Source: Terriglobia bacterium
GTDB taxonomy: Bacteria; Acidobacteriota; Vicinamibacteria; Vicinamibacterales; CAVVIG01
Assembly (NCBI GenBank): GCA_020073005.1
Contig: JAIQFX010000058.1
Location: 1 to 33,902 of the forward strand
DNA length: 33,902 bases
Direction: 5' to 3'
This document shows, one piece after another, positions 3,998-33,253 of the stretch; the stretch's first letter is position 1, and the number at the start of each line of letters is the position of its first letter. Under the pieces are notes generated by a model. The model saw only the letters and a list, made by a program, of their open reading frames with translations. It searched no databases and had not been told where the DNA came from. The position numbers and the translations under genes are program-made.

Positions 3998-4029
3998 TCC
4001 TCAAATCCTCAAATCCTTACTTCCTCAAA
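3998..4029. repeat. 8-nt tandem array between infA and rpmJ
   Basis: Units TCCTCAAA (3998-4005), TCCTCAAA (4006-4013), TCCTTACT (4014-4021), TCCTCAAA (4022-4029). On the transcribed strand the unit is TTTGAGGA, containing both a stop (TGA) and a Shine-Dalgarno core (GAGGA). The infA stop codon (plus 4025-4027) lies in the first transcribed unit, and the last transcribed unit supplies the ribosome-binding site of rpmJ. Confidence 0.85.
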
Positions 4030-4258
4030 TCTTCCCGACGATCCGACCGCGCCCGATGTCGACCGGCGACAGCTCCACGCGAACCCGATCGCCCACCAGG
4101 ATGCGCACGAAATTGCGATCCGTGCGATCCGCGATGTGCACCATCACGAACGGGCCGTCGTCGAGCCGCACGCGATACATCGCGCTCGGCAGGGTCTCGG
4201 TGACCGTCCCGACTACTTGCGCGCGGCGACCGGCACTTCCCTCGCCGTCAGAATCCAT
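4025..4258 (-). CDS. infA: translation initiation factor IF-1
   Basis: 77 residues from ATG 4258. IF-1 is a single OB-fold protein that blocks the A site during initiation. The family core is clear (GTVTETLPSAMYRVRLDDG, HIADRTDRNFVRILVGDRV, VELSPVDIGRGRIV). The only canonical start lies inside the map gene, giving a 46-nt out-of-frame overlap and about six extra N-terminal residues (MDSDGEGSAG...) relative to E. coli IF-1. No strong Shine-Dalgarno sequence precedes it, so coupling to map translation is likely. Confidence 0.95.
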   Translation of the reverse strand: MDSDGEGSAGRRAQVVGTVTETLPSAMYRVRLDDGPFVMVHIADRTDRNFVRILVGDRVRVELSPVDIGRGRIVGKI

Positions 4259-5654: not shown

Positions 5655-5660
5655 AGATAG

Positions 5661-5777
5661 TCGTTGGTCGTTGGTCGTTGGTCGTTGGTCGTTGGTCGTT
5701 GGTCGTTGGTCGTCAGTCATTGGTCCGACGAAGGACTAACGACTAACGACTAATGACTAATGACTAATGACTAACGA

Positions 5778-5780
<3 letters not shown>
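5661..5780. repeat. bipartite 7-nt array between secY and adk
   Basis: Left arm: seven perfect consecutive copies of TCGTTGG (5661-5709), then TCGTCAG and TCATTGG (5710-5723). Right arm: CGACTAA (5740-5746, 5747-5753), TGACTAA (5754-5760, 5761-5767, 5768-5774) and CGACTA (5775-5780). The arms are near-complementary (GTCGTTG against TAACGAC) and could fold as a long hairpin with a loop of about 16-20 nt. The final CTA is the secY stop codon on the minus strand. This is the longest perfect array in the window. Confidence 0.95.
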
Positions 5781-9757: not shown

Positions 9758-9774
9758 AGTGCGATCCTGAATTT

Positions 9775-9860
9775 AGTTATCTAGTCATCTGGTCATCCAG
9801 TCATCGATTGGCCATTCGAACGATCCAAATGACCCGATAACCAGACGACTCGATGAACGA
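9775..9860. repeat. bipartite 8-nt array between rpsN and rpsH
   Basis: Left arm AGTTATCT, AGTCATCT, GGTCATCC, AGTCATCG (9775-9806). Right arm ATGACCCG, ATAACCAG, ACGACTCG, ATGAACGA (9829-9860). The arms are degenerate inverted copies with a central GATTGGCCATTC-like spacer. The unit family (RGTCATC/GATGACY) is the same as in the rpsE-rpmD array. It begins directly next to the rpsN stop (plus 9863-9865). Confidence 0.85.
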
Positions 9861-12206: not shown

Positions 12207-12296
12207 GAAATTGGGTAATGGGGTAATTGGGTAAGTGCATTGCCCAATTGCCTGACCCGATTACTCAACGACCCAACTACTCAATTACCCAATTCA
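12207..12296. repeat. bipartite 8-nt array between rpsC and rplP
   Basis: Left arm TTGGGTAA (12211-12218), TGGGGTAA (12219-12226), TTGGGTAA (12227-12234). Right arm ACCCGATT, ACTCAACG, ACCCAACT, ACTCAATT, ACCCAATT (12255-12294). The arms are complementary; 12209-12219 pairs perfectly with 12284-12294. TAA occurs in each left-arm unit. The rpsC stop (plus 12294-12296) begins on the last base of the last unit. Confidence 0.9.
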
Positions 12297-12983
12297 CCCT
12301 CGGGCGGCAGGTCTCCTCGGCGCCCGTTCTCTGTACTCTTCTTCGCGACCTCTCTGAGGCACCAGCCGCTCGCCCTTGTACAGCCACACCTTGATGCCGA
12401 TCTGGCCGTAGGTCGTGTTGGCTTCCGCGAAGCCGTAATCGATGTCCGCGCGCAGCGTCTGCAGCGGCAGCTGGCCGTGCAGGTACCACTCGGAGCGCGC
12501 GATTTCCGCGCCGTTCAGCCGTCCCGACACGCGCACCTTGATGCCGCGCGCGCCGAAGCGCAGCGCCGACTCGACGGCCTTGCGCATCGCGCGACGGAAG
12601 GCGACGCGCTTCTCGAGCTGCATCGCCACCGACTCGGAAATCAGCTGCGCATCCAGCTCCGGCTTCTGGATTTCCTGGATGTTGATGAAGACCTCGCGGT
12701 TGGTCCGCTTCTGGATTTCCTGCTTCAGCTTGTCGACTTCCGTCCCCTTGCGGCCGATGATGATGCCCGGGCGCGAGGTGTAGATGTCGATCTTCAGCTT
12801 GTTGGCGGCCCGCTCGGTTTCAATCTTCGCGACGCCCGCGTGGGCGAAGCGCTTCTTGAGGCTCGAACGCAGCGCCAGATCCTCGTGCAGCAGCTTCGCG
12901 TAGTCGCGGTCCGAGTACCACCGCGACCGCCACGTCTTGTTGAACCCGAGGCGGAATCCGAACGGGTGAACCTTCTGACCCAC
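12294..12983 (-). CDS. rpsC: 30S ribosomal protein S3
   Basis: 229 residues starting at GTG 12983 (protein [23 protein letters not shown]). S3 lies at the mRNA entry tunnel and has helicase activity with S4 and S5. The KH domain is seen ([19 protein letters not shown]), and the C-terminal domain has [16 protein letters not shown] and [11 protein letters not shown]. An AGGAG Shine-Dalgarno core sits about 6 nt upstream, within the last codons of rplV. The tail is arginine-rich and its stop abuts the repeat array. Confidence 0.99.
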
Positions 12984-19580: not shown

Positions 19581-19590
19581 ATGAAATCTC

Positions 19591-19664
19591 GGATTGAGGA
19601 TTGCGGAATGCGGATTGGAAATCCCCTTTCGGGAAGATCCGCACTCCGCAATCCTCAACCCGCA
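19591..19664. repeat. bipartite 7-nt array forming a long hairpin in the rpsL leader
   Basis: Left arm GGATTGA, GGATTGC, GGAATGC, GGATTGG (19591-19618). Right arm ATCCGCA, CTCCGCA, ATCCTCA, ACCCGCA (19637-19664). The arms pair over about 24 bp with two mismatches. It lies 10 nt upstream of the rpsL ATG on the minus-strand transcript, so the hairpin would sit just before the first ribosome-binding region of the operon. Confidence 0.9.
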
Positions 19665-19673
19665 ATGTCTGCG

Positions 19674-24954: not shown

Positions 24955-25754
24955 TACTTCAGTTGATCGTTTTCGTAGCGCGCGGCGATGACCGTGCAGT
25001 TGTCGCGGCTGCCGCGCGCGAGGGCCGCGGCCAGCACGTGGTGCGCCATGACCTCGGGCTCCGGGTCGTGCTGCGCGGCCAGCCGCAGCTGTTCGTCGCT
25101 CAGCACGCCGTGCACGCCGTCGGTCGTGAGGATCAGGACGTCGCCGTCGCGCAGCGCTTCTTCCATCACGTGCACATCCGTGCGCGGCCTCGCGCCGACG
25201 ACGTTGGTCAGCGCGTTGCGCATCGGGTGATGCTGCAGCAGCACCGGATCGACGTGCGGATCCTGCGCGAGCACGCTCGCCACCCACGAGTCGTCGCGCG
25301 TCACCTGACGCAGCCGTCCGTCCGTCAGGAGGTAGAGGCGGCTGTCGCCGACATGCCCCACCACCAGACGCGCGCCGACCGCGCGCGCGGCGACGACCGT
25401 GGTCCCCATGCCGGCGAAGCGATCCGCCGACCCGGCCATCTCGAGAATCTGCACGTTGGCGATCTGAATCGCGGTGCGCAGCAGGTTGCCGTCCGCCGAG
25501 AAATCGGGGTCGAAGCCGAACGGCCAGTCGAGGGCGCGGTCGCCGAGCAGCGCGGCGCCGCGGTGCGACTCCTGCACGAAGTCGACGATGGCGTCGACGG
25601 CGAGCCGGGCCGCGACTTCCCCGGCGTTGTGGCCGCCCATCCCGTCCGCGATGACGCAGAGGCCGAGCTCGTCCAGAATGGCAAAGCGGTCTTCGTTGGT
25701 GGGCCGAATCCGGCCTTTGTCAGTGACCCCGTACGCGCGCAGCACCCGGCACAC
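24951..25754 (-). CDS. PP2C-family (Stp1-like) serine/threonine phosphatase
   Basis: 267 residues from GTG 25754 (another GTG 9 nt inside is possible). A soluble bacterial PP2C: GVTDKGRIRPTNEDRF, ADGMGGHNAGEVAA (D37), GMGTTVV, VGHVGDSRLYLL, VTRDDSWV, TTDGVHGVL and SRDNCTVI hold the metal-binding aspartates. It dephosphorylates Ser/Thr proteins and often pairs with a Hanks-type kinase; none is in the window. It is tail-to-tail with the response regulator, with a 4-nt overlap of the stop codons. Confidence 0.93.
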   Translation of the reverse strand: MCRVLRAYGVTDKGRIRPTNEDRFAILDELGLCVIADGMGGHNAGEVAARLAVDAIVDFVQESHRGAALLGDRALDWPFGFDPDFSADGNLLRTAIQIANVQILEMAGSADRFAGMGTTVVAARAVGARLVVGHVGDSRLYLLTDGRLRQVTRDDSWVASVLAQDPHVDPVLLQHHPMRNALTNVVGARPRTDVHVMEEALRDGDVLILTTDGVHGVLSDEQLRLAAQHDPEPEVMAHHVLAAALARGSRDNCTVIAARYENDQLKY

Positions 25755-25795
25755 CCCTGTGACGCTTGAACGGCCAGCTGGATCCGGCCGTGCGG

Positions 25796-25822
25796 ATTAT
25801 CGGCAATCGTGGCAACATTCAA
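25796..25822 (-). promoter_or_regulatory. possible promoter of the PP2C gene
   Basis: On the minus strand TTGAAT (plus 25817-25822) and GATAAT (plus 25796-25801) lie 15 bp apart, a short but possible -35/-10 pair, about 42 nt before the GTG start. It directly abuts the CAGYCAC array. Confidence 0.3.
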
Positions 25823-25850
25823 CAGTCACCAGCCGCCAGTCACCAGCCAC
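25823..25850. repeat. 7-nt tandem array upstream of the YbhB-like gene
   Basis: CAGTCAC (25823-25829), CAGCCGC (25830-25836), CAGTCAC (25837-25843), CAGCCAC (25844-25850). It ends 1 nt before the AAGGAG ribosome-binding site (25852-25857). The same unit family recurs at 32341-32368 and, inverted, at 33222-33246. Confidence 0.85.
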
Positions 25851-25865
25851 CAAGGAGATCATTCG

Positions 25866-26357
25866 ATGATCGGAGTTCTCGTCATGTCCGCCGCGCTCTC
25901 CCTTACCAGCCCGGCCTTCACGGAAGGCGGCGCGATTCCGTCGAAGTTCACGTGCGACGCGGGGATGACCAACCCGTCGCCCGCGCTGGCGTGGAAGGAT
26001 GCGCCGGCGGGCACGAAGTCGTTCGTCCTGATTCTGCACGATCCGGACGCGCCGCTCGCGGGCGGCTTCACGCACTGGGTCCTGTTCGACGTGCCGGCCT
26101 CGACGACGGGGCTGCCCGAGAACTTCCAGGCGGGATCGGTCGGCATCGACGGCAACAGCGGCTTCCGCCGCGCCGGCTACGGCGGCCCGTGCCCGCCGAC
26201 CGGCTCGCACCACTATCACTTCATCCTGTCGGCGCTCGACGTCGCCGCGATCGGCGCAGCGAAGGGCGCGACGAAGGCGGATGTCGAGAAGGCGATGGCC
26301 GGACACGTGCTCGCCACAGCCGAACTGGTCGGGACGTATCAGAAGACGCCGAAGTAA
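25866..26357 (+). CDS. YbhB/YbcL family Raf kinase inhibitor-like protein
   Basis: 163 residues with AAGGAG 8 nt upstream. PEBP fold: LTSPAFTEGGAIPSKFTCDAGMTNPSPALAW, ILHDPDAPLAGGFTHWVLFDVP (DPDAP 59-63; HWVLFDVP 70-77), GYGGPCPPTGSHHYHF and the C-terminal GHVLATAELVGTYQK. The name is historic; bacterial members have no established kinase target and may bind small ligands. The first residues (MIGVLVMSAA) are mildly hydrophobic; M7 is an alternative start that would give the usual short N-terminus. Confidence 0.95.
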   Translation: MIGVLVMSAALSLTSPAFTEGGAIPSKFTCDAGMTNPSPALAWKDAPAGTKSFVLILHDPDAPLAGGFTHWVLFDVPASTTGLPENFQAGSVGIDGNSGFRRAGYGGPCPPTGSHHYHFILSALDVAAIGAAKGATKADVEKAMAGHVLATAELVGTYQKTPK

Positions 26358-26363
26358 GTACGT

Positions 26364-26430
26364 AGTCGTTGGTCGTCGGTCGTGAGTCCTTGGCCGTAAC
26401 GAACGACGAATGACCAACGACTGACGACTA
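26364..26430. repeat. bipartite 7-nt array between the YbhB-like gene and a secreted hypothetical
   Basis: Units AGTCGTT, GGTCGTC, GGTCGTG, AGTCCTT, GGCCGTA (26364-26398), then ACGAACG, ACGAATG, ACCAACG, ACTGACG, ACTA (26399-26430). The two halves are inverted copies meeting with almost no spacer. Same family as the secY-adk and four-helix-bundle arrays. The final CTA is the stop codon of the minus-strand gene. Confidence 0.9.
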
Positions 26431-27081
26431 TTTGGCGACGTCGTACACGCGGCGAATGACGTCGCCGCGGTTCTTCTCCGCGAACTGCGCTTCCATCACG
26501 AGCTGGCCGGCGCCAGCGCCGCCCGAGAGCGTGTAGCGCAGTTCGCGATCCTTCTCCACGTTGAAGCGGATGACGAGCTGCGTGGGCTCCCACTTCGTCA
26601 CGACGCCGATCGGCCCCGCGTCGAGCTGCAGCGTCTCTTCCTTGCCGGTCGGATGAAACGTGCGCGTGCGCGCGCGGCCGAACGCGATCGTGACCGCGGT
26701 GTCGGTCTGCGCGATCGTCAGCGCGGGCGGCGGGTCTTTCACTTCCTCGACCAGTTCGCGGATCTTCTTCACATCGTCTTCGCTCTCGAAGCGCGGCGTC
26801 CCGCTCGGGACCGCGCCTGACCCGCTCGAACGTCCTCCACCTCCGCCGCGGCCGCCACGTCCGCCGCCGGATCGGCCGCCGCCGCTGCCGCCGCGGCCTG
26901 GCGTGGCGCTGCTCGCGTCCTGCCAGTCCGGATCGAATCCAACGTCTTTCGGGAAGTCGCTGGCCGCGCGATTGAGGGTCCAGTCGCCGGAGAGATCCGG
27001 ACGCGCGGCAGCCGGCAGACGCGCGGCTGCAACCGTCACGCTCCCGGCGCAGGCAGCGCAGATCAGCAGCAACCATTTCAT
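26428..27081 (-). CDS. secreted hypothetical protein with Gly-rich linker
   Basis: 217 residues. Signal peptide 1-20 (WLLLICAACAGSVTVAAA). Then a short PDLSGDWTLNRAASDFP motif, often seen at the start of small secreted acidobacterial proteins, a Gly/Arg/Ser-rich linker at about 60-90, and a folded-looking C-terminal domain (LTIAQTDTAVTIAFGRARTRTFHPTGKEETLQL... VIRFNVEKDRELRYTLSGG) with alternating beta-strand character. I do not know the function; a lipocalin-like beta-barrel is possible. The stop codon is supplied by the adjoining repeat array. Confidence 0.8.
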   Translation of the reverse strand: MKWLLLICAACAGSVTVAAARLPAAARPDLSGDWTLNRAASDFPKDVGFDPDWQDASSATPGRGGSGGGRSGGGRGGRGGGGGRSSGSGAVPSGTPRFESEDDVKKIRELVEEVKDPPPALTIAQTDTAVTIAFGRARTRTFHPTGKEETLQLDAGPIGVVTKWEPTQLVIRFNVEKDRELRYTLSGGAGAGQLVMEAQFAEKNRGDVIRRVYDVAK

Positions 27082-27088
27082 GACTGGC

Positions 27089-27229
27089 TTAGACGCGGCG
27101 CAGGAACCGCACGGCGTGCCGTCCCAATTCCAGCGTGGCGATCATGACCGACTGCGGGAGGCTGGTGCCGGCGCGAGCGAGGGCGACGCGGCACGACTCG
27201 AGGCAGGCGATGAGGAACGTGGACAACAC
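27089..27229 (-). CDS. possible small gene or gene remnant
   Basis: The frame ends at TAA (plus 27089-27091), is open back to 27295, and has a GTG at 27229. Third positions of the last ~45 codons are almost all G or C, as in real genes here, and the product (TFLIACLESCRVALARAG, VMIATLELGRHAVRFLRRV) looks like two helices. There is no ATG start or ribosome-binding site, so it may be the 3' remnant of a lost gene. It occupies the 225-nt gap between the two hypotheticals. Confidence 0.25.
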   Translation of the reverse strand: MLSTFLIACLESCRVALARAGTSLPQSVMIATLELGRHAVRFLRRV

Positions 27230-27306
27230 ATCGGATTGGACCAGAATCGCGTGGCAGAACGACGGCGAGCCGATGACAAATCGATGATGTGCACCTCAGA
27301 GGCGGC

Positions 27307-27492
27307 TCAGTCCTTCTCGAGCTCGGCAATCCGCTTGAGGGCTTTCTTACGGAGGGCCGCCGCGTCGCGCGCGATGGCGGCCTCGCCCGCGCGTTCCATA
27401 TGCACGACCCTGCGATCGAGCGCCGCGATCAATTCGTTCAGGTGCCGAAGGGCGCGCTTCCGATCCTCGCTGCTGGATGACTTGGTCGCCAT
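27307..27492 (-). CDS. small helical hypothetical protein
   Basis: 61 residues from ATG 27492 with a GAGAG-like site upstream (TTG 27504 is an alternative). Highly charged and predicted helical throughout (DRKRALRHLNELIAALDRRVVHMERAGEAAIARDAAALRKKALKRIAELEKD), with a heptad-like Leu/Ile/Ala pattern suggesting a coiled coil. There is no signal peptide and no recognised family. It stands 30 nt upstream of nothing conserved; the aldo/keto reductase ends just beyond its start. Confidence 0.6.
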   Translation of the reverse strand: MATKSSSSEDRKRALRHLNELIAALDRRVVHMERAGEAAIARDAAALRKKALKRIAELEKD

Positions 27493-27522
27493 GGTCGCTC
27501 TCAATTAGGACACAACTCGCGG

Positions 27523-28608
27523 CTAGTATCTATCGGCATCGCTCTTCGGCATGAGCGGCCAGACGGCGGACGGCTCGCCGTTCACCGTCGCGCCGCCGTG
27601 CATGAAGCCGTTGGCCGCCTTGAGGAAATTCGCCGGGAAGTTGAGCGCCGGCTCGGACAGCGTGTCGAGCGCGGCGATCTGATCGCGCGTCAGCGTGACC
27701 TCCAGCGCGGCGAGATTCTGCTCGAGCTGATCCAGCCGCCGCGCGCCGATGATCGTCGACGCCACGCCCGGCCGGCCCTGCACCCACGCGAGCGCCACGC
27801 TCGCCGCGGACACGTGCAGCGCTTGTCCGATACGAATCAGCTCGTCGATGATCGCGTAGCCGCGCTCGTCGAGGAACGTGGTGACCCGCTCGCCGCGATC
27901 GGCTTTCACCTGGCCCGCATTCGCCCGTGTGTACTTGCCCGACAGTGCGCCGCTCCGCAGCGGCGACCACGGCGTCACGCCGAGGCCCAGCTCGCGCGCC
28001 ATCGGTATCAGCTCGCCTTCGATCGTCCGCTCCAGGAGCGAGTACTCGACCTGCAGCGCGACCAGCGGCGTCCACCCGCGGAAGCGCGCGATCGTCTGCG
28101 CCTGCGACACCTTCCACGCCGGCGTGTCCGAGAAGCCGATGTAGCGGACCTTCCCCGCCTGCACGAGATCGTCGAGCGCGCGCAGCGTCTCTTCGATCGG
28201 CGTGAACCTGTCCCAGCAGTGCATCCAGTACAGATCGATGTAGTCGGTCTGCAGGCGGCGCAGCGACTGCTCGCACGCCGCGGCGATCGCCTTGCGGCCC
28301 GCGCCGCCGCCGTTCGGATCGCCGGGAAAGAGGTTGCCGAAGAACTTCGTCGCGATGACGACGCGGTCGCGCCGGCCGCGGTCGCGGCCGAGGAAGTCGC
28401 CGATGATCTTCTCGGAGTGGCCCTTCGTGTAGACGTTGGCCGTGTCGATGAAATTGCCGCCGCGCTCGAGGAACCGCGCGATGATCGCTTCTGACTCGGC
28501 GACGCTCGATCCCCAGCCCCAGTCCTCGCCGAACGTCATCGCGCCAAGACAGAACGGGCTCACTCGCAAACCGGAGTTACCAAGGGTGATGTAGTGATTG
28601 AGGGACAT
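27523..28608 (-). CDS. aldo/keto reductase
   Basis: 361 residues, NAD(P)H-dependent TIM-barrel reductase. The catalytic tetrad is complete: D55 and Y60 (FIDTANVYTKGHSE), K88 (VVIATKF) and H130 (DLYWMHCWD). Further on are GKVRYIGFSDTPAW, QVEYSLLERTIE, PLRSGALSGKYT and STIIGARRLDQLEQNLAAL. Resembles the YajO/AKR11-like group of predicted reductases; the substrate is unknown. The ATG at 28608 directly abuts a GTTGGTC repeat array, so there is no Shine-Dalgarno sequence. The upstream gene is the four-helix-bundle protein on the same strand. Confidence 0.95.
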   Translation of the reverse strand: MSLNHYITLGNSGLRVSPFCLGAMTFGEDWGWGSSVAESEAIIARFLERGGNFIDTANVYTKGHSEKIIGDFLGRDRGRRDRVVIATKFFGNLFPGDPNGGGAGRKAIAAACEQSLRRLQTDYIDLYWMHCWDRFTPIEETLRALDDLVQAGKVRYIGFSDTPAWKVSQAQTIARFRGWTPLVALQVEYSLLERTIEGELIPMARELGLGVTPWSPLRSGALSGKYTRANAGQVKADRGERVTTFLDERGYAIIDELIRIGQALHVSAASVALAWVQGRPGVASTIIGARRLDQLEQNLAALEVTLTRDQIAALDTLSEPALNFPANFLKAANGFMHGGATVNGEPSAVWPLMPKSDADRY

Positions 28609-28650
28609 GTTGGTCGTTGGTCGTTGGTCGTTAGTCGTTGGTCGTTAGTC
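28609..28650. repeat. 7-nt tandem array, left arm flanking the four-helix-bundle gene
   Basis: Six consecutive units: GTTGGTC (28609-28615, 28616-28622, 28623-28629), GTTAGTC (28630-28636), GTTGGTC (28637-28643), GTTAGTC (28644-28650). It is in inverted orientation relative to the array at 29098-29180 and fills the space from 9 nt after the four-helix-bundle stop to the reductase ATG. Confidence 0.95.
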
Positions 28651-28659
28651 GCCGCCAGC

Positions 28660-29040
28660 TTAACCGCGCAAAGGGCGGTTCTCCCTATTCAAGTGCTTGA
28701 TCCACTGCGTCAGCATCTTACCAATCACAACGTAACGGTCGACGAGACTCGCCCGTTCTTCTGCCGTGATGTGATTCCTGCCGCACGCGACTTTCAGGTG
28801 CGTCTGCATCTCGTTGCACGATCCACGAGCGATATATTGATAGTGGGCGCAATGACGGTCCGTCTTCTGCCCGAATCCCTCGCTGATGTGCGCCGGAATG
28901 CGCGACGAGCATTCGGCTAACTGCCCACGAAGTTCGAAGTCTCTGCGCAGGCTCGGACGCTCAAGAATGGCAGAAACTGCATCAGCCGCTTCGAGTGCGC
29001 GCTGATATACGAGCAATTCATCGAGTGACCCGGCATGCAT
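28660..29040 (-). CDS. four-helix-bundle protein (S23/IVS-encoded protein family)
   Basis: 126 residues. Family features: LLVYQRALEAADAV (residues 9-22), ELRGQLAECSSRIPAHISEGFGQKT (36-60), YQYIARGSCNEMQTHLKVA (67-85), then a long fourth helix. This family was first seen encoded in intervening sequences of Leptospira 23S rRNA and is structurally akin to the Avd protein of diversity-generating retroelements; its cellular role is not settled. Third-position GC is visibly lower than in neighbours (codons GCA, GAT, CTT, GTA, TAT), which suggests acquisition. It is enclosed by two inverted heptamer arrays (28609-28650 and 29098-29180). Confidence 0.9.
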   Translation of the reverse strand: MHAGSLDELLVYQRALEAADAVSAILERPSLRRDFELRGQLAECSSRIPAHISEGFGQKTDRHCAHYQYIARGSCNEMQTHLKVACGRNHITAEERASLVDRYVVIGKMLTQWIKHLNRENRPLRG

Positions 29041-29097
29041 GCCAAGCGAATTGCATGTTCCGTACCGAGAGCTCGCCGAAACCGGAGCGCCGGATTG

Positions 29098-29183
29098 CCA
29101 ACGACCAAGGACTCATGACCACGACTAACGACCAATGACCAATGACCAATGACTAATGACCAACGACTAATGACCAACGACTA
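29098..29183. repeat. 7-nt tandem array, right arm flanking the four-helix-bundle gene
   Basis: Twelve units: CCAACGA, CCAAGGA, CTCATGA, CCACGA (6 nt), CTAACGA, CCAATGA three times, CTAATGA, CCAACGA, CTAATGA, CCAACGA, then CTA (29181-29183), which is the stop codon of the cupin gene. Complementary to the units at 28609-28650. It lies 57 nt upstream of the four-helix-bundle start. Confidence 0.95.
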
Positions 29184-29519
29184 CTTGTTTTCCACAACGA
29201 TCAATTCGATCGTCCGGTTCGTATCGTTGACGTCCTTGTGCATTTCGCCTGCGGGCATCGGCTCGAAGAAGTACGCCTTGCCTGATTCGTAGTGCGTCAC
29301 GGTCGCGCGCCCGCCCAGCGCGACGGTTTTCAGATCGCCGCCGACGATGCCAATCACCGTGCGATAGCGATCGTGGCGATGCATCGTCGACTCGGTGTGC
29401 GGCGGGATGATGCTCTTCCACGAAACGACGCGGTCGTTTTCGAATTGCGGCACGCGCTGCATCTCGGCGCGCGGCGCCTGCAGGAGCAATCCCAGCACCA
29501 CAGCAGCGCGCCAGATCAT
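29181..29519 (-). CDS. small secreted cupin-like protein
   Basis: 112 residues. Hydrophobic N-terminus (IWRAAVVLGLLLQAP) consistent with a signal peptide. Cupin-like motif SIIPPHTESTMHRHDRYRTVIGIVGGDL with H47 and H49, and a second strand pair with FFEPMPAGEMHKDVN (H94). It probably binds a metal ion; the reaction is unknown. It overlaps the amidohydrolase stop by 4 nt (ATGA), so it belongs to the permease-amidohydrolase-cupin operon and may act on the same compound outside the cytoplasm. The last residues (VVENK) precede a stop formed by the repeat array. Confidence 0.75.
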   Translation of the reverse strand: MIWRAAVVLGLLLQAPRAEMQRVPQFENDRVVSWKSIIPPHTESTMHRHDRYRTVIGIVGGDLKTVALGGRATVTHYESGKAYFFEPMPAGEMHKDVNDTNRTIELIVVENK

Positions 29520-30511
29520 TTGATCTTCCCCTCGAGCCGCAGCAGTTTCGCGGCGGTCCGCCAGCGAATGCCCTCGCGCTGCTCGTCCGTCACCGGCAAC
29601 GTGTTCACGGCGTCCAGCATCGACGGAATGCTGCCGATCTGATGCGGGTAGTCGCTGCCGGACAGGATGTGATCGGCTCCCGCGAACTCGATCGCGAGCT
29701 TCAGCGCGCCCTGATTGAAGTTCACGGTGTCGTAATAGAACTCCTTGAGGTACGAGCTCGGCTCGCGCTGAATGTGCTGGCGACAGTCCCGGAACGCGTG
29801 GAATCCCCGATCGAGCCGCTCCGCGAGGTACGGAATCGCGCCGCCAAGATGACAGAGCGCCCACTTGATCTTCGGATAGCGCTCGGGCACGCCCGCGAAG
29901 ACGAGCGACGCCGCGGCCAGCGTCGTGTCGAACAGGAAGCCGACGAGCGGCATCAGCCAGTACTCCTGCATCATGTCCACGTTCACCGGATGCGCGGGGT
30001 GGATGTAGAGCACGGCGCCGAGGTCGTTCGCGCGCTCGTAGATCGGCCAGAACCGCTCGTCGCTCAGCGCCACGCCGTTGATGTTGCTGAAGAGCATCGC
30101 CCCTGGCAGCCCGAGCTGCCGCGTCGCGCGCTCGAACTCCTTCGCCGACGCCGCCGGATCGTTGAGCGGCAGCGTCGCAAGCGACGTGAAGTGACGGCCG
30201 CGCGTGTCGATCGCTTCCTTGAACTCGTCGTTCACCATCGACGCGAGCTTCGCCGCCACCGCCGGCGTCTCCACGTGCGTGCCCGGCGTCGTCAGCGTCA
30301 CGACCTGCATCGTCACGCCGAGCGTGTCGAGCACCTCCTGGCGGTACGCGAGATCGCGATGCCCGCGCACGGCGACGTTGTAGTCGCCCGGGTAGTGCAG
30401 GTTCGGATTGCCGTCGCTGTCGATCGTCACCTTCACGCTGCTCTGGCCGGACTGCAGCGCCTTCATGTAGTTCGGCGGGTAGTAATGGTTGTGGAAATCA
30501 ATGACGGGCAT
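29516..30511 (-). CDS. amidohydrolase, ACMSD-like (amidohydrolase_2)
   Basis: 331 residues from MPVIDFHNHYYPP. TIM-barrel metal-dependent hydrolase or decarboxylase of the aminocarboxymuconate-semialdehyde decarboxylase group: metal ligands H7 and H9 (DFHNH), H171 (YIHPAHP), H221 (ALCHLGGAIPYL) and D287 (ILSGSDYPH). GDYNVAVRGHRDLAYRQEVLDTLGVTMQVV and LATLPLNDPAASAKEFERA are typical of the group. The exact substrate cannot be told. The start overlaps the permease stop by 14 nt, and the last 4 nt overlap the cupin. Confidence 0.93.
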   Translation of the reverse strand: MPVIDFHNHYYPPNYMKALQSGQSSVKVTIDSDGNPNLHYPGDYNVAVRGHRDLAYRQEVLDTLGVTMQVVTLTTPGTHVETPAVAAKLASMVNDEFKEAIDTRGRHFTSLATLPLNDPAASAKEFERATRQLGLPGAMLFSNINGVALSDERFWPIYERANDLGAVLYIHPAHPVNVDMMQEYWLMPLVGFLFDTTLAAASLVFAGVPERYPKIKWALCHLGGAIPYLAERLDRGFHAFRDCRQHIQREPSSYLKEFYYDTVNFNQGALKLAIEFAGADHILSGSDYPHQIGSIPSMLDAVNTLPVTDEQREGIRWRTAAKLLRLEGKIK

Positions 30512-31796
30512 GTAGACGTCTCCAGACGAAGTAAACGGGAAGACCGGCGACGACGAGTCCCAGTCCCCACAGACTGCTGCCGGGATCGGACGCAATCTGA
30601 TTCACGACAATCGCCAGACAAATGGCGGCGAACAGCACGGGCGCGACCGGAAATCCCCACGCGCGGAACGCCGCGACGTAGCCGGCTTTCCGCCGCAACG
30701 CCAGCGTCCCGAGCGCGAGCGCGCCGAAAAAGATCCATTCAGTGTAGACCACGCGCGACACCAGCGTGCCGTACGTCGCCGTCAGCACGAGCGCCGACGA
30801 CCAGATTGCCTGCGCGGCGATCGCGAGGTACGGCGACCGGTACGTCGGGTGCACGGCGCCCATCCACTTGAACAGCAGTCCATCGTCGGCCATCGCGAGA
30901 TACACGCGCGGTCCGGCGAGGATGATGCCGCTGTTGGCGCCGAGCGACGAGACGAGCACCAGCACCGAGATCGCCGACGCGGCCGAGGCGCCAGCGGCCA
31001 CCGACGTCGCATCGAACGCGATGTGCGTGGACGAGAGCACGCGGCCGAGCGGCAGCACGAGCAGGTACGCGGAGTTGAGCGACAGATAGGTCACGACGAC
31101 GACGGCCGTGCCCAGCATCAGCGCGCGCGGAATCGTGCGCTCGGGATCGTGCGTCTCTTCGGCGGCGTACGTCACCATGTGCCAGCCGCCGAAGGCGAAC
31201 AAACCGGCGACGAGCGCGCGCAGGAATCCGGCCGGCTGCACGGCGGCCGCGGCCGCCGCCGGCGCACGCAGCACGCCGAGCCCGAACAACAGGCACAGCA
31301 GGATCGCGATCGCGCCCAGCTTCGTGATCGTCAAGCCGGTCTGCACGGCGGCGCCGGGCCGCACGCCCGCGTAGTTGATCGCCGATAGCACGAGGATGCT
31401 GCCGACCGCGGTCCACCGGATTCCGAGATCGCCCATCGGGACGATCGTCGCCGCGTACCGTCCGAACACCATCGCGATCGCCGCGATGATGCCCGAATGC
31501 ATGCTCCAGAACATCGCCCAGCCCCACAGGAATCCTGCAGCCGGCGAAAACATCTCGCGCAGGAACACGTACACGCCGCCGGTCCGCGGGTACGCGGACG
31601 TCAGCTCGGCGCAGATGCTCGCGCCGAACCACGTGAGCGCGCCCGCCGCGATCCAGACGAGCAGCATGCCCGAGAACGACGGCACGGCCCGGCTGACTTC
31701 CGACGGCTGAACGAAGATCGACGAGCCGACGATCGTGCCGACGACCATGGCCGTCGCCTGCGTCAGGCCGATGGACCGGGTCAGTTGTGTGGACAT
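30498..31796 (-). CDS. APC-superfamily amino acid/amine permease
   Basis: 432 residues with about 12 hydrophobic segments. TM1 motif GLTQATAMVVGTIVGSSIF, and AELTSAYPRTGGVYVFLREMFSPAAGFLWGW are the family signatures; AAEETHDPERTIPRAL lies in the cytoplasmic loop. It probably imports an amino acid or related amine. It heads an operon with the amidohydrolase (14-nt overlap) and the cupin, suggesting uptake and degradation of one compound. A 24-bp direct repeat begins 2 nt before its ATG, leaving no clear ribosome-binding site. Confidence 0.93.
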   Translation of the reverse strand: MSTQLTRSIGLTQATAMVVGTIVGSSIFVQPSEVSRAVPSFSGMLLVWIAAGALTWFGASICAELTSAYPRTGGVYVFLREMFSPAAGFLWGWAMFWSMHSGIIAAIAMVFGRYAATIVPMGDLGIRWTAVGSILVLSAINYAGVRPGAAVQTGLTITKLGAIAILLCLLFGLGVLRAPAAAAAAVQPAGFLRALVAGLFAFGGWHMVTYAAEETHDPERTIPRALMLGTAVVVVTYLSLNSAYLLVLPLGRVLSSTHIAFDATSVAAGASAASAISVLVLVSSLGANSGIILAGPRVYLAMADDGLLFKWMGAVHPTYRSPYLAIAAQAIWSSALVLTATYGTLVSRVVYTEWIFFGALALGTLALRRKAGYVAAFRAWGFPVAPVLFAAICLAIVVNQIASDPGSSLWGLGLVVAGLPVYFVWRRLHARH

Positions 31797-31798
31797 GC

Positions 31799-31846
31799 GT
31801 TGTAGCGCGAGCCTTTCAGGCGGTTGTAGCGCGAGCCTCTCAGGCG
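31799..31846. repeat. 24-bp tandem duplication between permease and DinB genes
   Basis: Positions 31799-31822 and 31823-31846 are 23/24 identical (each begins GTTGTAGCGCGAGCCT and ends CAGGCG). Each unit contains a small inverted pair (GCCT/AGGC). A partial third copy (GCGAGCCT) touches the DinB stop at 31854. It is longer-period than the 7/8-nt arrays and looks like a separate repeat family. Confidence 0.85.
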
Positions 31847-33221: not shown

Positions 33222-33246
33222 GGTGGCTGGTGACTGGTGGCTGGTG
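33222..33246. repeat. 7-nt tandem array upstream of the ADOP permease
   Basis: GGTGGCT (33222-33228), GGTGACT (33229-33235), GGTGGCT (33236-33242), GGTG (33243-33246). It is the inverted form of the CAGYCAC family seen at 25823 and 32341. It ends 7 nt before the ATG at 33254 and occupies the expected Shine-Dalgarno region. Confidence 0.85.
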
Positions 33247-33253
33247 AACGACG

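Follow-up and report, generated by a model that had tools for sequence, protein, structure and literature searches.

S23-type genes between facing inverted arrays of short repeats: a probable two-part DNA element with gene-less satellites

Why should a small gene be flanked by two arrays of the same heptamer in facing, inverted orientation? This question is raised by one locus in a stretch of 33,902 nucleotides of an acidobacterial contig, which we refer to as the window. At positions 28609-29183, as delimited by TRF and by comparison with sister genomes, the window carries an element composed of two inverted heptamer arms with one gene inside. The left arm (28609-28651) contains six copies of GTTGGTC/GTTAGTC (6.1 by TRF) and is G-rich inwards, and the right arm (29098-29183) contains approximately 12 units of CCAATGA/CCAACGA/CTAACGA that are complementary to the left arm; both were detected by TRF and by arm alignment. 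The gene (28660-29040, minus strand), identified by ORF call, profile matches and a structure model, codes for a four-helix-bundle protein of 126 amino acids that belongs to the S23 family (PF05635/TIGR02436). When aligned as reverse complements, the arms share 37 identities over 43 nucleotides (28609-28651 against 29122-29164), with a score that none of 2,000 mononucleotide shuffles reached. GC content at third codon positions is 0.64 in the S23 gene, compared to 0.82-0.91 in six neighbours. Arms and gene together occupy the whole gap from the start codon at 28608 of an aldo/keto reductase-like gene to the stop codon at 29181 of a cupin-like gene (both assigned by eye). PF05635 is the sole Pfam match of the gene between the arms, and a DDE transposase gene is absent there. 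The original prediction had claimed both the complementary arrays around the gene and its lower third-position GC; TRF, the ORF call and the arm alignment bear out the former, and the codon position values confirm the latter.

The window protein matches PF05635 with an E-value of 6e-21 (75 bits, cut-off 33.8) and TIGR02436 with an E-value of 7e-19 (68.1 bits, cut-off 24); a single-protein scan of the genome contigs with it returned no match. Its structure model (pLDDT 97) superimposes on 2gsc (XCC0516) with a Z-score of 18.0 and an rmsd of 1.4 over 114 residues, on a Bacteroides S23 protein with a Z-score of 17, and on the Avd structures 4DWL and 8ub7 with Z-scores of 15.0 and 15.1, respectively. 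XCC0516 of Xanthomonas (2GSC) is also the only sequence match in the PDB up to an E-value of 1. We know of no catalytic motif in S23 proteins. The dN/dS or pN/pS ratio was low in six of the seven S23 pairs compared, and judging from these ratios the protein appears to be maintained by purifying selection in those six; the value of 0.7 for the remaining pair (L219-L223) is unusable because the length of the L223 match is not a multiple of three.

The suggested likeness of the S23 family to Avd of diversity-generating retroelements (DGRs) holds at the level of the fold (Z-score 15). This fold would fit a retroelement, in which S23 would partner a reverse transcriptase in the manner of Avd and the arrays would be cDNA products. 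Homology of Avd and PF05635 has been suggested (PMC10053308, in the portion available), and published accounts, as far as accessible, note PF05635 genes in DGR and CRISPR neighbourhoods. Unlike a DGR, however, the window S23 resides in a genome with no RVT_1 match, and there is none in G027 or G039, two single-contig genomes with armed S23 genes (10 and 6 S23 matches, respectively); RVT_1 matches are present in 14 of 40 genomes. The anticipated need for a reverse transcriptase was therefore not borne out. Reverse transcription was rejected on the basis of these three genomes, and the retroelement reading is strongly disfavoured, with next to no probability left to it.

We measured the occurrence of inverted arms at S23 genes in general by local alignment of the 350 bp to the left of the gene with the reverse complement of the 350 bp to its right, with a score of at least 16 as threshold. 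Among the matches listed, at least one PF05635 gene was found in at least 34 of the 40 genomes of the order, own genome included, which itself has five. The order set was composed of these five and 96 S23 genes outside the own genome (101 in total), 93 of which have 350 bp on both sides. The 96 were taken in score order among the matches listed, with eight places skipped (some at contig ends), so that weak S23 matches are under-represented; S23 loci found later stand outside these counts. Complementary flanks were detected at 70 of the 93 genes, compared to 18 of 1,860 pairings of a left and a right flank from different loci and 4 of 287 control ORFs. The controls, of 300-900 bp and from the same stretches, were chosen by a greedy longest-ORF rule and not by a gene finder. 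All four own-genome genes with testable flanks pass (scores 18, 29, 23 and 25); in the fifth gene, the contig breaks off. The first array detector had missed the arms of the own-genome loci except those of the window; flank alignment found all four.

The signal extends beyond the order. In a wide set made of the best 80 of at least 580 matches, which covers many phyla and at least one archaeon, 42 of 78 loci have inverted arms at the same threshold, compared to 1.5% of mismatched flank pairs; these counts are not independent, as five of the 78 loci are from Xanthomonas. S23 genes thus do tend to lie between inverted arrays, both in the order and across phyla, and this supports the original prediction. 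Below the threshold are 23 of the 93 genes in the order and 36 of the 78 in the wide set, some of them with one arm only or with arrays in direct order. By eye, arrays of the same word lie in direct order on the two sides of S23 in L105 (G014, 7.9-8.3 kb), L250, L254, L261 and L295. Several S23 genes are found no more than a few hundred bases from where a contig ends, which would fit assemblies broken by nearby repeats. Plasmid S23 genes also exist: seven plasmid records match, and in the four that were read, from Nostoc, Calothrix and Riemerella, the genes stand in close gene rows (neighbourhood reading only). The phage search with a Xanthomonas S23 returned no match.

The S23 arms are tandem arrays, with a repeat word mostly of 7 nucleotides, also of 6, 8, 9 or 10 and sometimes longer, that varies from locus to locus. 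In L057, L070, L087, L090 and L093 the arms look like long-period repeats (approximately 17-28 nucleotides), maybe higher-order units. Simply counting arrays beside genes is less sharp than the arm test: in the order, an array is present on at least one side of 57 of 93 S23 genes and 46 of 286 control ORFs, and on both sides of 27 and 4, respectively; in the wide set (best 80 of at least 580), the corresponding counts are 29 of 72 against 20 of 339, and 14 against 1.

When inverted array pairs are considered irrespective of genes, their loop sizes are bimodal. None of the 25 pairs with loops up to 150 bp contains S23. There are 59 pairs with loops of 300-800 bp, and 51 of these hold the S23 gene that was used to fetch the locus. 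Among the eight long loops that were not used in this way, four contain a further S23 gene, in one case in two pieces, and four (L111, L129, L244 and L294) contain none; one of the former, L042, was already in the original S23 match list. This result bears on the possibility that arrays are made by some other process, be it slippage or the work of a transposase or integrase not yet known, and that S23 is a passenger that landed or is tolerated in their loops: the S23 genes in half of these eight long loops argue against it.

The arms also have a common polarity. The left (5') arm contains more G than C in 64 of 75 armed loci of the order, in 51 of 53 of the wide set (best 80 of at least 580) and in 46 of 52 gene-less pairs. 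Since the left arm is G-rich, the polarity points inwards, independent of the strand of the gene.

A second possibility is that the arms act as RNA. Among 23S rRNA intervening sequences (IVSs), that of Coxiella, in the available part of PMC4990558, combines an S23 ORF with terminal inverted repeats, which pair into a stem of 28 bp, and with heptamers repeated in tandem ahead of the ORF, in numbers that differ from strain to strain. No known system comes closer to the window element, with which rRNA IVSs share the homologous PF05635 protein and the ORF between complementary ends. Transferred to our loci, the arm RNA would form a stem that is cut by RNase III and bound by S23. However, arm mismatches on the S23 sense strand have no G-U excess (304 G-U compared to 375 A-C in 139 loci), which speaks against a selected mRNA hairpin; the RNA hairpin was rejected for this reason. 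Moreover, the window element is not inside a 23S rRNA gene, as long protein ORFs flank it on both sides, and no Rfam family matches at 25500-31000. Unlike IVSs, elements of the window type lie outside rRNA, at gene junctions, their arms are arrays of widely varied words, and the arm word recurs in gene-less copies throughout the genome. We consider an action at the RNA level very unlikely.

Although the repeat word differs between loci, it tracks the S23 protein. In 75 armed loci, the mean arm score with the locus whose S23 protein is closest among those of other genomes is 11.5, compared to 5.3 over all pairs and to a maximum of 6.7 in 2,000 permutations. In the S23 tree, a quick one with 43 of 97 inner branches open, the window protein groups with L112, to which it is 76% identical, and with L094, and the arms of all three share the word GTCGTTG; L036 groups with L132 (common word TTTGAGGA) and L125 with L130 (common word TTGGGTAA). 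Two partial relatives found later, L143 and L144, both have the expected word adjoining. This co-variation speaks against a passenger. It does fit a binding protein, and S23 could be a sequence-specific regulator, with the arms as autoregulatory sites and the scattered arrays as its regulon. Several arrays lie directly upstream of start codons, and the available parts of PMC4679880 and PMC2700814 suggest that the heptamer repeats of Beggiatoaceae and Geobacter, respectively, have a role in regulation. A regulatory function, however, requires neither an inverted pair enclosing the gene nor a G-rich polarity that points inwards.

Words are also shared between S23 arms and gene-less arrays of the same genome. 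The word of 25 of 200 arrays away from S23 genes is identical to a same-genome S23 arm, compared to a mean of 1.05 and a maximum of 7 in 500 permutations of genomes. With only S23 genes of other loci considered, 11 of 200 are identical, modestly above the permutation maximum of 7, and the count with one mismatch (21) is below the permutation maximum of 31. Individual words show the same association. GAATGCAG (three copies, one mismatch allowed) occurs in only two of the 40 genomes, G001 and G009; the S23 gene L133 of G001 has GAATGCAG arms, and the S23 fragment on contig C1 of G009 is closest to L133 and is adjoined, by eye, by a degenerate word related to GAATGCAG. As many as 384 of 424 matches of TTTGAGGA (one mismatch allowed) fall in G013, to which L132 belongs; in the own genome, where L036 has this word, there are only four matches, two of which are the arms, and five genomes in which no such arm was seen have 2-14. 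The controls for both pattern searches, which like all of these searches count overlapping matches, were 0. Of the 11 genomes that have a window-like S23, 8 contain the word of the window, compared to 4 of the 29 that lack one (P-value 0.0007, Fisher test). The reversed word as control matches in 6 of 40 genomes, and in G017 and G029 the word (3 and 13) does not stand out from the control (15 and 12).

Not all of these data speak against a passenger. Gene-less arrays seem far commoner than S23 genes, with 163 overlapping matches of the window's word and one such S23 in the own genome (G000), and some genomes have arrays but no matching S23: G019 is an exception, with 105 overlapping matches of the window's word and no S23 of that type found. 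In this genome (L161-L164), the S23 of L164 has a TAATCGGG arm, and L161 contains a gene-less array of TAATCGG type. On the other side, S23-free genomes are poorer in arrays of period 7/8: we counted 3 in 250 kb from six such genomes and 20 in 333 kb from 11 genomes with at least four S23 genes (one-sided P-value 0.027), three of which had none in the samples, and control arrays of period 10/11 numbered one in each group. Over 19 genomes, the correlation between S23 number and array density was not significant (Spearman 0.30, P-value 0.22).

The window itself illustrates how gene-less arrays relate to S23 arms. Two gene-less inverted arrays, detected by TRF and arm comparison, have the word of the window's own S23 element: one at 5660-5780 and a degenerate one at 26364-26430. 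The short arm spacing previously described for these GTTGGTC-type arrays was recovered, with 0-13 bp at 5660-5780 and a short loop, by eye, at 26364-26430. At 3998-4031, a single array of TCCTCAAA (8 nucleotides) has the word of the own-genome S23 on C100 (L036; score 20), and the nearest arm to the array of TAGTCATC (8 nucleotides) at 9774-9805 is that of the own-genome S23 on C132 (L037; score 14). The gene-less inverted array AATTGGGT/ACCCAATT (8 nucleotides; 12209-12299) matches the S23 arms of L125 and L130 in sister genomes (scores 20 and 17) and the own arm of L037 (score 14). Overall, these five of the 11 gene-less arrays in the window score at least 14 against own-genome S23 arms; the median score of the window's gene-less arrays over all armed loci is 4-6. 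The other six match no own S23 arm, with one of the five own S23 genes cut at a contig end. The gene-less inverted array CGGATTG/ATCCGCA (19590-19666) is one of these six and matches the arm of S23 L111 from the sister genome G002; the word of another, AAAGTGA/TTCACTT (2310-2376, also inverted and gene-less), is absent from own S23 arms. The array GGTGACT at 33222-33247 has a different word, AGATTTC, at the orthologous junction of G001. Further array families, those just described among them, lie at 586, 2310, 3998, 9774, 12209, 19590, 25813, 32345 and 33222. A PEBP-like gene (by eye; 25809-26357) lies between the arrays CACCAGC (25813-25852) and GTCGTTG (26364-26430) and is absent at the syntenic place in G001.

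Comparison of sister genomes for gain and loss, as proposed at the outset, revealed two S23 elements that are near-cleanly present or absent. The window element is missing in G001, where the sequence at window position 28609 continues at 29176 (C24:13251/13253). G001 carries AAACGACTA at this site, which resembles the end of the last unit and represents either the terminal remnant of an array since lost or pre-existing sequence; the site could be a deletion instead of one that was never filled. G001 likewise lacks the own-genome S23 element of C132 and has a few bases at that site instead, and the same junction in G002 (C285, 10794-11491, near L366) holds, by eye, an antitoxin/PIN toxin pair. 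No presence or absence was called at the third own locus (C100), where the sisters matched on the right side alone. Gene-less arrays differ between sisters at several syntenic junctions, and at two of them the words are different. No target-site duplication is evident by eye at the sites read, where array boundaries are hard to place. In L307 (G001:C86), a 114-bp insert is an inverted gene-less element of CACGGAGGA type (9 nucleotides), and the corresponding site of the own genome is cleanly empty. Other small repeats that by eye also differ between sisters are GTAGGCCGGGTCC..GGACCCGGCCTAC palindromes and GTAGCGCGAGCC, found in L308 (G001:C32, approximately 2.7 kb, reverse strand), in L199 (13.6 kb) and at window positions 31799-31846.

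These differences weigh on both remaining alternatives. Since sisters carry different words at the same junction, the junctions may be plain hot spots, which favours a passenger; given the co-variation of word and protein, the occupied long loops and the poverty of S23-free genomes in arrays, we nonetheless regard a passenger as unlikely. The regulatory explanation, on the other hand, would lead one to expect a kept regulon, and array positions and even words differ between sisters; we likewise judge it improbable.

The association of word and protein led to a prediction in Xanthomonas. GGGAATC heptamer arrays are known there, often as convergent pairs, with 70 and 75 such pairs in two strains, and array types are usually kept between two strains (PMC4692102, available part). 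As predicted, the arms of XCC0516 homologues are made of this published word, GGGAATC, in five Xanthomonas loci with arm scores from 15 to 21: three, at 15, narrowly miss the threshold of 16, and two reach 21. The S23 element is fixed at one syntenic place in Xanthomonas, Dyella and Rhodanobacter. This fixed place and the kept array types indicate that the element is not always mobile. By eye, several of the loci L219-L230, from Xanthomonas and relatives, have four-unit arms with an odd third unit (GGGAATC GGGAATG GAGAATC GGGAATC type), and in some of them the arms are followed inwards by GGCAAAGCGG, complementary to the other side.

Other published heptamer repeats are the same kind of array as the S23 arms: GGGGA(C/T)T in Nostoc, with few inverted pairs (PMC4692102), TAACTGA in Beggiatoaceae, in direct order (PMC4679880), and four-heptamer elements in Geobacter (PMC2700814), each according to the part of the source available. 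The terms 'S23', 'intervening sequence' and 'four helix' have no occurrence in the accessible text of PMC4692102 and PMC4679880, and in a full-text literature that covers few subscription journals and preprints we found no link between S23 genes and genomic heptamer arrays.

The general layout also resembles another known system. In REPIN/RAYT systems, a dedicated gene is enclosed by inverted repeats, and inverted pairs that lack the gene occur at high copy number in the genome; the S23 gene similarly lies between inverted repeats whose word recurs in gene-less inverted copies elsewhere in the genome. Unlike REPINs, S23 systems are made of short tandem arrays and not of REP palindromes, and their protein is a helical bundle and not an HUH enzyme. 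Y1_Tnp is present in 28 of the 40 genomes, own included, but has no match in G013 and G030, which both have armed S23 genes; RAYT-type transposition was rejected on this basis. The S23 element is thus not an IVS by location, not a DGR in view of the missing reverse transcriptase match, and not a REPIN/RAYT system, and carries no transposase. It is best read as related through its protein to rRNA IVSs and to Avd of DGRs, and as neither of them.

The polarity of the arms, the missing G-U excess, the genomes with no RVT_1 match and those with no Y1_Tnp match, the selection on the protein and its fold together favour word-specific recognition of the DNA arms by an S23 oligomer. We consider it probable that the locus is a two-part element, with an S23-coding form whose word-specific inverted arms act as DNA, and gene-less satellites. 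The original prediction of a complete element with a gene between arms and gene-less derivatives is supported in this respect by the arm counts, the shared words and the sister genomes. The full form would be approximately 0.5-0.8 kb long, with one S23-type gene between facing inverted arrays whose G-rich strand points inwards from both ends. By homology to XCC0516, which is described as five four-helix bundles, the S23 protein may form an oligomer. It would recognise the word of its own arms, possibly by direct binding, and word and protein would change together because of this recognition. Gene-less inverted pairs (loops up to approximately 150 bp) and single arrays would be satellites that share the same recognition, as REPINs share a RAYT. 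The element would act on DNA, through neither an mRNA hairpin nor reverse transcription, and would appear at and vanish from gene junctions with no visible target-site duplication. S23 may cause arrays to spread or lengthen, and the cutting and copying may be performed by host replication or repair enzymes, for example on hairpins of single-stranded DNA at the fork.

Through the breadth of the association, the match between word and protein and the Xanthomonas prediction, what began as a peculiarity of one locus becomes a likely new class of repeat elements. In its broadest form, a proposal that we hold to be evenly poised, S23/TIGR02436 genes would mark a class of DNA elements that is large among prokaryotes and has so far gone unrecognised. 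In it, a word-specific four-helix-bundle protein with no assigned catalysis, coded between inverted arrays of its word, would seed and lengthen such arrays across the genome with host enzymes; many orphan heptamer repeats of bacteria, such as GGGAATC in Xanthomonas and perhaps those of Nostoc, Geobacter and Beggiatoaceae, would be its satellites, and rRNA IVSs would be copies that landed in rRNA genes. Short tandem arrays of 7-9 nucleotides have been reported in several bacteria with no known maker, and S23 is, to our knowledge, the first candidate partner for them. The word-by-word match between protein and array makes their origin testable in the laboratory, and a likely target emerges for 2GSC and 2RLD, structures that have been solved but lack an explanation. 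S23 elements may also explain the origin of 23S rRNA intervening sequences. If S23 does spread arrays with neither transposase nor reverse transcriptase, this would be, as far as we know, repeat generation of an undescribed kind.
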